Shown one piece after another: positions 11,414 through 63,526 of a DNA stretch of 64,000 nucleotides. The DNA is from Methanooceanicella nereidis (lineage in GTDB: Archaea > Halobacteriota > Methanocellia > Methanocellales > Methanocellaceae). The stretch lies in assembly GCF_021023085.1 (NCBI RefSeq), contig NZ_PGCK01000002.1, forward strand, positions 248,001 to 312,000. Direction: 5' to 3'. Position 1 is the stretch's first letter, and each line of letters starts with the position of its first letter. A model generated the notes under the pieces. That model had not been told where the DNA came from, searched no databases, and saw only the letters and a program-made list of their open reading frames with translations. The translations under genes and the position numbers were made by a program.

Positions 11414-12910
11414 TCATAATGAAATACCATATATACTCCCATACTTCTCTTTTGCATAACGGATGAAGTGATCCTCGTTAATGGTCTCTCCGGTCACCCT
11501 TCTGATAAGCTCCTTCGCATCATACCGCTTGCCGTGCCTGTGCACGTTCTTCCTGAGCCAGTCCAGCAATACACTGACATCACCAGCCATGATCCTATCC
11601 TCAAGACCGGGTATTTTCCGTTTTGCCGCATCCCAGAGCTGTGCAGAATATATGTTGCCCAGAGCATATGTGGGGAAATATCCGAATGCGCCGATAGACC
11701 AGTGGATGTCCTGCAGGCAGCCGCTGGCGTCGTCAGGAACTTCTATGTCAAGATAGTTCTTAAAACGCTCGTTCCAGAAAGCGGGTATCTCATGCGTCTT
11801 AAGCTTGCCGTCGAAGATCGCCGACTCGACATCATAGCGGAGCATTATATGCATGTTATAGGTCATCTCGTCCGCATCGATCCGGATATACGACCGCTTT
11901 ACACGATTTATGTATCTATGGAAGGCGTCAGGAGACATTTTGCCGATGCCCGGGAACGTATGCTGAAGCTTCGGATATTGATATTTCCAGAAATATATGC
12001 TTCGGCCGACCACATTTTCCCAGAATCTTGACTGAGACTCATGGATACCAAGAGAGATCGCATCTGCCAGCGGCGTGTGATAATACTTCTCCAAAAATCC
12101 CTGCTCGTAGAGCGCGTGCCCGGTCTCGTGCAGAGCCGGGAATATGGCAATGGCAGGGTTATTTTCGTCGTACTTGACAGTTATCCGGACATCGCTTCCT
12201 GTGCCGGACGTGAACGGGTGGGCGGAAATGTCGATCCTCCCGCAGTTCATATCGAACCCGATGTCCGAGCACAGCCGGGCGATAAATTTTCGCTGTTCTT
12301 CGAGCGGATAAGTACCGGGAGGGATAACATCTACAGGCTCTGTCTCCCCCAATATTTTTTCGGCTATCGGTTTTAGCTTGCCCAGGAAACGAGGGAACAG
12401 TAAGTCTATGTCACCGGCCTTCATGCCGGGCTCATATTCGTCCAGTAGCGCATCATATGGCCGGTCTTCATACCCGATACATTCCGTCTCGCGGAACTTA
12501 AGGCCGATCATCCTGTCAAGCAGCGGCTCCAGCTTTTTAAAATCGCTATCACTCCTTGCCTTTACCCATGCTTCCATGCCCAGGGACGCAGTTCGCGTGA
12601 TCTCTTTTACCAGATCCGCGGGCATGCTTGACGCTCTCTTATACTTCCTTTCTACGTTTCGGAGTATCGCCTCTCCGTCAGATGAAAGCTTTTGTTTTTT
12701 CAATGCTTTGATCAGCTTACCCATTTTTTGCGAGGTCAGCTTCTCATGTACGACACCTGCGATGACGGCATTATATCGCGCCCTTTGCTGGAAAGACCCT
12801 GGCGGCATATAAGTTTGCTCATCCCAGGACAAAAGTCCCCCGATCTGTTCAAGCATCCCGATATCCCTGACCAACTCTAAAAATTCGCGGTATTCTTTGC
12901 TCGCTGGCAT
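11414..12910 (-). CDS. M32 carboxypeptidase (Taq carboxypeptidase family)
   Basis: 498 residues, the usual size for this family. The zinc site is HETGHALYEQG, the HExxH signature of M32 metallocarboxypeptidases, and a downstream Glu in HESQSRFWENVVGRS supplies the third ligand with its family context. Other conserved blocks are LLSWDEQTYMPPG near the N-terminus, FTSGTGSDVRIT, and YNMHIMLRYDVESAIFDG near the C-terminus. These cytosolic enzymes trim residues from the C-terminus of peptides and may help recycle peptides. The gene is monocistronic. The gap on its 5' side contains the first copy of the large palindromic element. Confidence 0.93.
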   Translation of the reverse strand: MPASKEYREFLELVRDIGMLEQIGGLLSWDEQTYMPPGSFQQRARYNAVIAGVVHEKLTSQKMGKLIKALKKQKLSSDGEAILRNVERKYKRASSMPADLVKEITRTASLGMEAWVKARSDSDFKKLEPLLDRMIGLKFRETECIGYEDRPYDALLDEYEPGMKAGDIDLLFPRFLGKLKPIAEKILGETEPVDVIPPGTYPLEEQRKFIARLCSDIGFDMNCGRIDISAHPFTSGTGSDVRITVKYDENNPAIAIFPALHETGHALYEQGFLEKYYHTPLADAISLGIHESQSRFWENVVGRSIYFWKYQYPKLQHTFPGIGKMSPDAFHRYINRVKRSYIRIDADEMTYNMHIMLRYDVESAIFDGKLKTHEIPAFWNERFKNYLDIEVPDDASGCLQDIHWSIGAFGYFPTYALGNIYSAQLWDAAKRKIPGLEDRIMAGDVSVLLDWLRKNVHRHGKRYDAKELIRRVTGETINEDHFIRYAKEKYGSIYGISL

Positions 12911-13033: not shown

Positions 13034-13600
13034 GATATGTTTTACGTTATGCCTGTCGGATGGCAGGTAGGCACGTAACCTCACAGAAACACAAAACCAC
13101 AAAATTTTTTATATGATTTTTTAAGGTCTCTAAATCACAAAAACTTACTCACCAAACCACAAAGGCTCAAGTATCACCGTCAACGCACAAACACCCCTAA
13201 CGCACGGCTTAACGCTCGAAGTGCTCTAATCCACTAACGCTAAAACAAGCCCCGAACATTCTCCAATAACACGAAATTTTAACTGCACGGTTGACGTTTA
13301 TATGGCTAATATATCCATGATATAGATCAGGCGAACACAGACCGGGATATTGAACTTTAGTGTTTTTGGAGAATGTTCGGGGCTTGTTTTAGCGTTAGTG
13401 ACTTAGAGAGGTTAGTGCGTTAAGCCGAGCGTTAGGGGTGTTTGTGCATTGACGGTGATACTGGAGCCTTTGTGGTTTGGTGAGTAAATTTTTGAGATTT
13501 CGTGCACTTAAAAAATCATATAAAAAATTTAGTGTTTCCGTGTTTTTGTGAGGTTACGTGCCTACCTGCCATCCGTCAGGCACAACCACAAAAATATCAC
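13034..13600. repeat. Large palindromic element, copy A (about 566 bp)
   Basis: Two arms of roughly 240-250 bases face each other around an unpaired centre of about 70 bases (about 13286-13355). The outer ends read GCCTGTCGGATGGCAGGTAG on the left and the complement of GCCTGACGGATGGCAGGTAG on the right; further blocks such as CACCAAACCACAAAGGCTC, CACCGTCAACGCACAAACAC and AACGCTAAAACAAGCCCCG recur in inverted orientation. A second, diverged copy lies at 32903-33468 with the same arms, centre and total length. No open frame of useful length exists on either strand. A transcript would fold into a long imperfect hairpin. I know no described element with this structure. Confidence 0.85.
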
Positions 13601-13731: not shown

Positions 13732-14466
13732 GTGCACAGTAAAACTATCAGAACGATTTTAATAGTATTTGTCCTGCTTTCGCTTTTTACCGGGATCGTT
13801 CCCGGCACATTTGCGCAGGACGGGTACATGGACGATAAAGATCCTATGGCCGATAAATATGGCCGTATGACCGGCAGGCAGATCGACCGCATAGACAGTG
13901 TGATATCGATCTCTAACATGAGCACTGATTCGGCTATGTTCACGATAAGTGAAATGGTCTTGAAGGGAATAGGGAATAACGTATCCCACATTATTCTCAG
14001 TAAGCCGTTAAGCGGGGAGTATGACATGACCAGCGACATGGCTTACATGTCTACAAAAGAACTGGACACGGCTACCATGGAAAGATCGGACGTCGGTAAA
14101 ACATCCATCGCAGTTGCCGGCGCTTCCGCGATCTGGACCATGAAGGACATCAAGGTGCTATTCAACGACAGGGACTACTTCCTGTACGAGTTCGGCACGC
14201 TGTCGCTGTACATGCCGGACGGCACAGTGAAATCCTATAAGCTGGAAAAGCCCGTGAAGATGCTGTTTTCCAAAGAGAGAAAGATGGAAATAATGGATGC
14301 GTATCCTACGGTGACCAGCGCCCTTAAAGATGCTTTCATGCCGGGAGATAAGTTCCCGTCCGACGCTGAGCCGATACCTATGACCGAACTGATCAAGGCG
14401 ACATCGTCTGCGCCGGCTTCGCGGATAGAATATAAGAAGCCTGAAATAGTGTCGGTGCCTGTGTGA
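13732..14466 (+). CDS. Secreted protein of unknown function
   Basis: 244 residues, GTG start with GGGGG seven to eleven bases upstream. A classical signal peptide occupies residues 1-29 (TILIVFVLLSLFTGIVPG, cleavage near TFA-QD). The mature protein is soluble, unusually Met-rich (for example MDDKDPMADKYGRM and MTSDMAYMSTKELD), and has no second hydrophobic segment. No domain is recognised. It starts about 130 bases after copy A of the palindromic element, and a hairpin overlapping its stop codon probably terminates transcription. Confidence 0.7.
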   Translation: MHSKTIRTILIVFVLLSLFTGIVPGTFAQDGYMDDKDPMADKYGRMTGRQIDRIDSVISISNMSTDSAMFTISEMVLKGIGNNVSHIILSKPLSGEYDMTSDMAYMSTKELDTATMERSDVGKTSIAVAGASAIWTMKDIKVLFNDRDYFLYEFGTLSLYMPDGTVKSYKLEKPVKMLFSKERKMEIMDAYPTVTSALKDAFMPGDKFPSDAEPIPMTELIKATSSAPASRIEYKKPEIVSVPV

Positions 14467-32713: not shown

Positions 32714-32795
32714 TTAAAGACTCAAAGGACATCTCAAAGAACTCAACGTATATTTAAAAAAACTTTGAGATCTTTCAGTCTTCTTTGAGTCTTAG
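32714..32795. repeat. Dispersed hairpin family 2, copy A
   Basis: TTAAAGACTCAAAGGACATC and the following TCAAAG on the left are mirrored by CTTTGAGATCTTTCAGTC and TTCTTTGAGTCTTA on the right. The left-arm sequence closely matches the left arm of the hairpin at 40125-40216, so both belong to one family. Confidence 0.65.
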
Positions 32796-32797
32796 TA

Positions 32798-33690
32798 GTT
32801 TCGGTGTGTGTTTGTACCGGTTGGTTTTTTGTGGGTGTTCTCATAAAGAAACTTTTTGATGGTCATTGAAAAAGACGTGCATGTAACATTCATTATGGGA
32901 TCGATGTTCTGCCGTGATGCCTGTCGGATGGCAGGCAGACACGTAACCTCACAGAAACACGGAAACACAAAAATTTTTTTAGAATTTTAAGATCACGAAA
33001 ACCCTAAGGTTCACTCACCAAACCACAAAGGGCTCCAGTATCACCGTCAACGCACTAAAGTCTCAAATGCACGGCTTAATGCTCGAAGCGCTCTAATTCA
33101 CCAACGCTAAAACAAGACACGAACATTCTCCAAAAACACTAAATTTTAACTGCACGGTTGACGCTTACACGACTAATAAATCTGTTATAGGTCGGGCGAA
33201 CACAGACCGGGATATTAGACTTTCGTGCCCCTTGGAGAATGTTCGGGCCTTGTTTTAGCGTTGGTGACTTAGAGAATGTTGGTGCGTTCAGCCGAGCGTT
33301 AGAGGTGTTAGTGCGTTGACGGTGATACTAGAGCCCTTCGTGGTTTAGTGAGTAAACTCTTAGTGCTTTTTGAGCCCTTAAAAAATCATAAAAAAAATTT
33401 TGTGTTTCCGTGTTTTTGTGAGGTTACGTGTCTACCTGCCATCCGACAGGCACAACCATAAAAACATCATCTCAAAGACCATTGAGTAAAACACGTTCTT
33501 TCATCCTTAAAACCTGAACAAGACCCCGCACATCAAAGATTTTGTGTATTTTTTATTTTGGTGGTTGGTTATAGCAAGTGGTGTAGGGTGTTGTTTATGG
33601 TGTTTTTATGAAAACAACAACCAACAAAAAACCAGGACAAACCCCACCGAAACTACTGAGACTCAAAGATGAGAATGAATTACTCCAATA
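32798..33690. repeat. Outer inverted repeat surrounding palindromic element copy B
   Basis: The left piece at about 32785-32850 (TTTGAGTCTTAGTAGTTTCG, then GGTTGGTTTTTTGTGGG, then TTCTCATAAAG) recurs in inverted orientation at about 33600-33680 (complement: TTTGAGTCTCAGTAGTTTCG, TTTTTTGTTGGTTG, TTTTCATAAA). The large palindrome at 32903-33468 is thus nested in a second, weaker inverted repeat. No gene is present between 32600 and 33796. Confidence 0.6.
32903..33468. repeat. Large palindromic element, copy B (about 566 bp)
   Basis: Same organisation as copy A at 13034-13600: outer ends GCCTGTCGGATGGCAGGCAG and the complement of GCCTGTCGGATGGCAGGTAG, internal inverted blocks (CACCAAACCACAAAGGGCTC, CACCGTCAACGCAC, CACCAACGCTAAAACAAG) and a centre of about 70 bases (about 33150-33221) that keeps TGCACGGTTGACG and GGGCGAACACAGACCGGGAT from copy A. 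Substitutions are spread through both arms but pairing is largely kept. No long open frame. Confidence 0.85.
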
Positions 33691-36277: not shown

Positions 36278-36346
36278 AATAAAACATATTTGATATATTA
36301 CATGGTTTTTAGGTATACCCCTTTCATTCCATTTACCAAAATAGGC

Positions 36347-36590
36347 ACAAAGGCAACAAAGGAACACAAAACTGCCAACCACAAAGCGCACAAAGGCAAA
36401 CAAGGAACACTAAACTGCCAACCACAAAGCGCACAAAGGCAAACAAGGAACACTAAACTGCCAACCACAAAGCGCACAAAGGCGAACAAGGAACACAAAA
36501 CTGCCAACCACAAAGCGCACAAAGGCAAACAAGGAACACAAAACTGCCAACCACAAAGCGCACAAAGGCGAACAAGGAACACAAAAGACT
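36347..36590. repeat. Tandem array of a 43-bp repeat, left arm (5 copies)
   Basis: The block GCCAACCACAAAGCGCACAA recurs at 36374, 36417, 36460, 36503 and 36546, a constant 43-bp period, with only a few substitutions between units. There are no variable spacers. The 104-codon open frame over it is a by-product of a repeat with few stops. The array faces an inverted copy array at 36624-36745. Confidence 0.85.
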
Positions 36591-36623
36591 TTTTTAGAAG
36601 ATGATCATATACTAAAAAAATTT

Positions 36624-36745
36624 GTGTACCTTACTAGCCTTCGTGCGCTTCGTGGTTAACAGTCTAGTGTACCTTACTCGCCTTCGTGCGCTTCGTGGTT
36701 AACAGTATAGTGTACCTTACTCGCCTTCGTGCGCTTAGTGGTAAA
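36624..36745. repeat. Inverted partner array of the 43-bp repeat (3 copies)
   Basis: Units starting GTGTACCTTACT at 36624, 36667 and 36710 have the same 43-bp period. Each contains GCCTTCGTGCGCTTCGTGG or a close variant, the reverse complement of the left-arm core with G/A differences shared by all right-arm units. Together with the left array this makes an inverted repeat with a short centre at about 36591-36623. Confidence 0.8.
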
Positions 36746-36842
36746 AAATCGTGTGCATCAGCGCCGGTGAAATGAATGTTATAATGAGTTCTTCTAACGC
36801 CAATGACCATTAATTTAAGTAAAGGTCGCTTAAAGTTAAAAA

Positions 36843-63224: not shown

Positions 63225-63421
63225 AACAACAAGCTCACAAAGGCAAACAAGGACCATTATCTTCCACCACAAAGCGCTCGAAGGCGAAAAAGGTCCACAA
63301 ATTTTTTTAAAGTATATGTTAATCTTCTAAAAAAGTCCTTTGTGTACCCTTGTGCCCGTTGAGCCCTTAGTGGTGGAAACTGGTGTACCCTTGTGCCCGT
63401 TGAGCGCTTTGTGGTTAACAA
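63225..63421. repeat. Inverted repeat of 41-43-bp units, second locus
   Basis: The left side (63225-63302) has CTCACAAAGGCAAACAAGG and CACCACAAAGCGCTCGAAGG units. The right side has two units in inverse orientation, beginning GTGTACCCTTGTGCCCGTTG at 63342 and 63383 (41-bp period) and containing GAGCGCTTTGTGGTTAACA. It is clearly the same repeat family as at 36347-36745 but more diverged. The 392-base gap 63135-63526 holds nothing else recognisable. Confidence 0.7.
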
Positions 63422-63526
63422 ATTAGAGAACTTCGAGCTCTTTGCGGGGAAATAGAGTGAATCAGATTGTAATACCAGAGGAAATAGTCTGAATACGTAT
63501 ATAGCGGATGTACTGATGTTCTTCAT

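Follow-up and report, generated by a model that had tools for sequence, protein, structure and literature searches.

A gene-less palindrome family in Methanooceanicella nereidis as a probable MITE-like form of an element carrying a predicted GxxExxY nuclease gene

The window considered here, a stretch of 64,000 nucleotides from the archaeon Methanooceanicella nereidis, contains an 820-bp gap bounded by a gene coding for 498 amino acids (11414-12910, - strand) and a gene coding for 244 amino acids (13732-14466, + strand). Within this gap lies a hairpin-shaped element of 565 bases, hereafter copy A (Table 1). An initial annotation of the window had placed a long palindrome at 13034-13600, and such a palindrome is indeed present, with two arms that are more than 80% complementary as claimed; the proposed arm length of about 240 bases was slightly low (258 nt) and the proposed centre of 70 bases slightly long (49 nt). 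The description of the palindrome as free of genes and filling most of the gap holds as well, since no open reading frame (ORF) of more than 42 amino acids lies wholly inside the gap.

Table 1. Palindromes and related repeats of the window, numbered from its first nucleotide.
Feature	Position	Strand	Basis or remark
Left arm of copy A	13034-13291	+	Inverted repeat I1, 258 nt, 86% complementary
Centre of copy A, 49 nt	13292-13340		Equivalent place holds a GxxExxY gene in L057, L058 and L060
Right arm of copy A	13341-13598	-	Inverted repeat I1
End motif TGCCTGTCGGATGGCAGG of copy A, conserved, forming the small hairpin CCTGTC-GGAT-GGCAGG	13050-13067	+	40-copy alignment
Mirrored conserved end motif of copy A	13565-13582	-	40-copy alignment; end-pattern matches in genome
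Copy B of the palindrome (locus L026)	about 32918-33452	+	Genome search; end-pattern matches
Copy B and the outer repeat around it	32782-33659		Stretches common to loci; flank alignment
Facing arrays of 43-bp CACAAAGG-type repeats with a short gene-less centre	36346-36752		93-96% identity to L056 array
Gene-less repeats resembling the 43-bp array in style, shorter and more diverged	63225-63425		78-84% to L056 and L014 stretches

Copy A has many relatives in the host genome (3.19 Mb, 41 contigs), where a search yielded 115 first-look candidates, 40 of which were scored, at 83-88% identity to copy A. A pattern derived from the end motif matched 71 times in forward and 71 times in reverse orientation, compared with no match for the reversed-pattern control, and the number of dispersed palindromes is put at about 71, gene-bearing ones counted in. 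All 40 copies examined are intergenic, no ORF of at least 100 amino acids reads through a palindrome around the 40 copies fetched, and the gaps in which they lie are convergent (16), tandem (16), divergent (6) or at contig edges or unresolved (2). The exact end motif also gave 13 single matches in other genomes, all in unrelated organisms, which were read as chance. Palindromes are found at many contig ends (e.g., C2:409106, C3:147, C5:231397, C8:171564, and C13:402), several of them no more than a few hundred bases away, so that this repeat family probably limits the assembly of the host genome and the real number of copies may slightly exceed the count.

Most copies, copy A not among them, are enclosed by an outer repeat (CCATGAAAAACTTTTTGATGG ... 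CCTGAGCAAGACCCCGCTCATCAAAGATTTCGTGGTG; flanks of L002-L030 and L045-L054), which itself adjoins CACGAAG-type repeats, giving the elements a nested appearance. At L024:3278-3540 the outer repeat occurs with no palindrome inside; this is a possible empty site, too diverged to reveal exact insertion ends. In 8 of the 40 copies the palindrome centre has the opposite orientation to its outer flanks, an arrangement which, judged from these alignments, suggests that the arms recombine with each other. No target duplication was recognized for the archaeal family: matches of 6-9 bases between flanks were considered and rejected, since they do not fall at consistent positions and AT-rich flanks should yield matches of this kind by chance.

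Of the other three genomes of the family searched, one gave a weak match. This genome (2,957,635 bp), which represents a sister genus, bears a palindrome family of its own, with at least 35 members each about 510 bp long, homologous to those of the host over some 400 bp (60-62%). Palindrome positions generally differ between the two genera; at L019, for instance, a palindrome occupies a host gap, whereas the orthologous sister-genus genes adjoin without it (L076). Several sister-genus palindromes carry insertion sequences (IS) near their centre, with Mutator/IS256-type transposases in L105 and L106 and IS-like ends in L107 and L108. The IS256-type genes were first suspected of being the mover of the palindromes, a candidate that was abandoned: in L106 and L108 the ends of the insert show arm sequence duplicated over 8 bases, and for this reason the genes were read as later insertions. 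The tips of palindromes may be preferred IS targets.

Three copies in the host genome (L057, L058, and L060) are more than palindromes: a gene of the GxxExxY family occupies their centre, in the same orientation in each, between arms of 255-291 bp that are 88-89% complementary. The encoded protein belongs to this family at high score, both by TIGR04256 (E 4.5e-36; 123.7 bits for a curated cut-off of 35) and by PF13366 (PDDEXK_3; E 2.6e-34; 118.5 bits for a curated cut-off of 22), the latter of which has seven matches in six genes of the host. Residues G34, G36, E39, Y42, E90, K92, Q104, N121, and F122 are invariant in 59 relatives and D80 is nearly so; D80, E90, and K92 fit the D...ExK pattern of PD-(D/E)XK nucleases, and a nuclease is predicted on this basis. 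A sequence search for a relative of solved structure returned none. Cas4 scores of GxxExxY proteins are weak, in line with a published case in which GxxExxY was called beside a reverse transcriptase where another tool gave cas4 (PMC8934634). In a tree of arms, most gene-bearing arms lie beside copy A and other copies devoid of the outer repeat; the mixing seen in this tree is probably due to arms having been exchanged. The host also has a divergent GxxExxY-type gene, L059, with no flanking inverted repeats. With some 71 dispersed copies, a homologous family in the sister genus and three copies that hold a GxxExxY gene between their arms, the suggestion of the initial annotation that the palindrome is a mobile unit is supported, and the search it proposed, through this genome and related methanogens, did bring to light copies and a homologous family.

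The same gene family also connects the palindrome to other repeats of the window. On either side of the GxxExxY genes L055 and L056 stand arrays of 40-43-bp CACAAAGG-type repeats that face each other, and the array at 36346-36752, by its likeness to that of L056, is the gene-less counterpart of the L056 locus. This match to arrays flanking a GxxExxY gene accounts for the earlier remark that the palindrome arms and the 41-43-bp repeats have CACAAAGG-type words in common, a remark also borne out by word counts: each consensus arm contains 14 CNCNAA words, compared with 2.7-2.8 in shuffled sequences. Across archaeal arms the count is 14-19, compared with about 3 in shuffles, and the words are spaced mostly by 8 or 9 bases or near multiples thereof.

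Beyond the host, the layout of a GxxExxY gene between inverted repeats recurs widely. Among Methanocellales, 14 of 17 GxxExxY loci are directly flanked by an inverted repeat (all 14 at E <= 3e-11). The sister genus has six GxxExxY genes, and the arms of its 510-bp palindromes were found at none of them. The family is present in 18 of 148 genomes of the wider archaeal phylum, in 96 of 199 genomes of the phylum sampled around a Planctomycetia genome and in 71 of 198 of the phylum sampled around a Desulfobacterales genome. Flanking inverted repeats (E <= 1e-6) accompany 2 of 7 strong archaeal loci outside Methanocellales and 26 of 54 bacterial loci in the two phyla, proportions that describe the best-scoring family members and are no census. 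In the controls the counts were 0 of 80 for bacterial-contig ORFs of similar size, 0 of 46 for ORFs of the window and 5 of 300 for random stretches; for 26/54 bacterial loci compared with 0/80 control ORFs, the latter being mechanical frames and not curated genes, Fisher p = 5e-13. The family was found in eight plasmid records and in none of the viral contigs and phage records searched.

The repeats at these loci differ in sequence and have in common a style of 8-9-base words; those of bacteria read CCACGGAACACACGGAATACACGGAA, CCACAGAGACACAGAGACACAGAG, CCGCAGAGGCGCAGAG, and similar. Of 40 genomes with the gene, 19 contain one such bacterial pattern, vs. 4 of 40 genomes that lack the gene (p = 2e-4). 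Among the matches listed for this pattern, 39 of 43 neighbors within 1 kb face each other, most of them 45-270 bp apart, which makes these pairs gene-less palindromes. In a bacterial genome of 12.3 Mb (G202), a CACGGAG-type triple repeat has 420 matches, compared with one for the control pattern, and among the matches listed these are mostly facing pairs. Another bacterial genome (G375) has 64 repeat matches though no PF13366 gene was found in it; the gene may have been lost, the assembly may have missed it, or there may be a different mover. In the openly available literature searched, no report was found that ties GxxExxY to flanking inverted repeats or to gene-less palindromes, and six typical repeat strings had no match. 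The recurrence of the layout in distant archaea and bacteria is pointing to a widespread and little-described kind of mobile element.

Taken together, these observations make an explanation likely in which copy A is a GxxExxY element that lacks its gene; the less certain part of this explanation is that the GxxExxY nuclease spreads such copies in trans. The complete element would consist of a long inverted repeat, a small GxxExxY gene of the PD-(D/E)XK superfamily and a second inverted repeat. Gene-less copies would descend from complete ones that lost the gene internally, and their later spread would be that of passive DNA. The palindromic form would result from having the same sequence at both ends of the element and not from selection for a hairpin RNA. 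The nuclease made by a complete copy would recognize the repeated ends, or the cruciform that they extrude, and its cuts at either would let gene-less copies spread in trans. The parts of this proposal are not equally firm. That copy A is a non-autonomous, MITE-like form lacking the gene can be held with high confidence. The nuclease acting in trans is our leading guess for the mover, favored because the gene is found together with repeats in both domains even though the repeats themselves vary in sequence, and it falls slightly short of an even bet. It is more tentative still that GxxExxY genes define an undescribed class of mobile elements spanning both domains, in which a nuclease gene stands between inverted repeats of 8-9-base words and spreads gene-less palindromes in trans. 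Against the explanation as a whole count the roughly half of tested bacterial GxxExxY loci that have no detectable inverted repeat, the state of the gene-bearing copies, only one of which has an intact frame (L057; L060 has a stop and is split, and L058 is disturbed near its start), the failure to recognize a target duplication for the archaeal family, the six GxxExxY genes of the sister genus that do not carry its palindrome arms, a bacterial gene-less family (described next) that was probably moved by another transposase, and the fact that, to our knowledge, no activity is known for GxxExxY.

The strongest competitor, in our judgment unlikely, holds that the palindromes, as MITEs, owe their movement to an ordinary insertion-sequence transposase of the DDE type and that the GxxExxY gene is a passenger of the inverted-repeat unit and not its mover. 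MITEs are usually moved by IS transposases, and a case of this type exists in two bacterial genomes (G373 and G411), where a dispersed gene-less unit of 276 bp (L203-L208) has 8-bp target duplications lying outside its GTAATGTCAAAA / TTTTGACAGTAC ends (TGTCAAAA-type), ends that are absent from the gene-bearing loci checked in these genomes (L183, L175, and L211). These duplications and missing ends indicate that the L203-L208 family was probably moved by another transposase of ordinary type. The unit, a clean MITE, carries facing CCACAGAG repeats in the GxxExxY style. The archaeal copies, however, have the same ends with and without the gene, no extra ends or duplications were found at them, and the gene accompanies inverted repeats in both domains despite their differing sequences.

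Two further explanations would have the palindromes kept for a function. According to one, which we consider very improbable, they serve as sites of chromosome organization or recombination, whatever their origin; their number, their intergenic placement and the inverted centres, taken as a sign that arms recombine, are what such sites might show, but their positions are generally not those of the sister genus and the copies have diverged from copy A by 12-17%. According to the other, a shade less credible again, selection keeps the palindrome as a functional RNA or hairpin (double-stranded RNA, terminator or RNA-processing signal); the initial annotation had pointed this way in calling palindromes of this size unstable unless maintained, in naming a functional unit beside a mobile one and in remarking that a transcript would be a very long double-stranded RNA. 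Copy A does fold into a very stable RNA (-365 kcal/mol vs. -150 +/- 7.6 for 20 dinucleotide shuffles; z = -28), and convergent gaps are in mild excess (16/38). Selected pairing would, however, make the arms of the same copy match each other better than arms of different copies, and no such excess exists: arm identity in host copies is 0.811 both within and across copies, with swaps restricted to the three copies nearest to each other the values are 0.8114 within and 0.8106 swapped, which differ by 0.0008 +/- 0.0023, and in the sister-genus family it is 0.753 within vs. 0.757 across. The palindrome is thus not a conserved RNA, and maintenance as a functional double-stranded RNA is not supported; both arms started out alike in the ancestor, and each has since decayed on its own. 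Moreover, the window has no Rfam match beyond one tRNA, and copies occur in convergent, tandem, and divergent gaps alike. Of the two findings that the initial annotation had named together as counting against it, a lack of compensatory changes from arm to arm was observed, whereas a lack of copies in related genomes was not: copies exist, and so does a homologous family. Least probable of all is a REP/RAYT system in which a Y1 tyrosine transposase spreads the palindromes, for although these are dispersed and intergenic and the host has one Y1_Tnp gene (PF01797, L062), this single locus resembles none of the palindrome loci (0 matches), the gene between the arms is of PD-(D/E)XK and not of Y1 type, and 565 bp is far from the 20-40 bp given for REPs (PMC3733652).

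If the GxxExxY explanation is right, it would make sense of long palindromes that otherwise resemble giant RNAs and of the repeat words CCACAGAGACACAGAG, CCACGGAACACACGGAA, and CCACAAAGCGCACAAAGG, familiar in many genomes and so far unexplained; the proposed class, if true, would explain a substantial part of the CACGAAGG-, CACAGAG-, and CACGGAG-type repeats that are dispersed in archaeal and bacterial genomes. A common protein family without a function would gain a testable role, and the system would be a PD-(D/E)XK counterpart of RAYT/REPIN, in which the nuclease that spreads the repeats belongs to none of the classical transposase families.

Among known systems, MITEs resemble the palindromes in being short, gene-less, intergenic, and present in many copies with inverted-repeat ends, and in having gene-bearing relatives with the same ends (here L057, L058, and L060). 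On the other hand, the inverted repeats fill nearly the whole element here, the gene of the relatives encodes a PD-(D/E)XK protein and not a known transposase, and target duplications were not recognized in the archaeal copies. The GxxExxY family itself (TIGR04256, PF13366), to which the gene between the arms belongs, is described in the literature searched as a protein family only, with neither repeats nor gene-less palindromes. RAYT transposases (TnpA-REP) are thought to spread REP/REPIN sequences. This is a system that works alike, with dispersed gene-less palindromes, a small endonuclease-type gene flanked by inverted copies of the same repeats and a gene that possibly acts in trans, and in the literature searched it is the nearest described arrangement (PMC3116915, PMC8266576, PMC3733652). 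The two differ in size, 510-565 bp here and 20-40 bp for REPs, and in the gene, as RAYT is a Y1 tyrosine transposase, whose hallmark presence beside the repeats was not found in the host genome, whereas a GxxExxY gene takes that place here.
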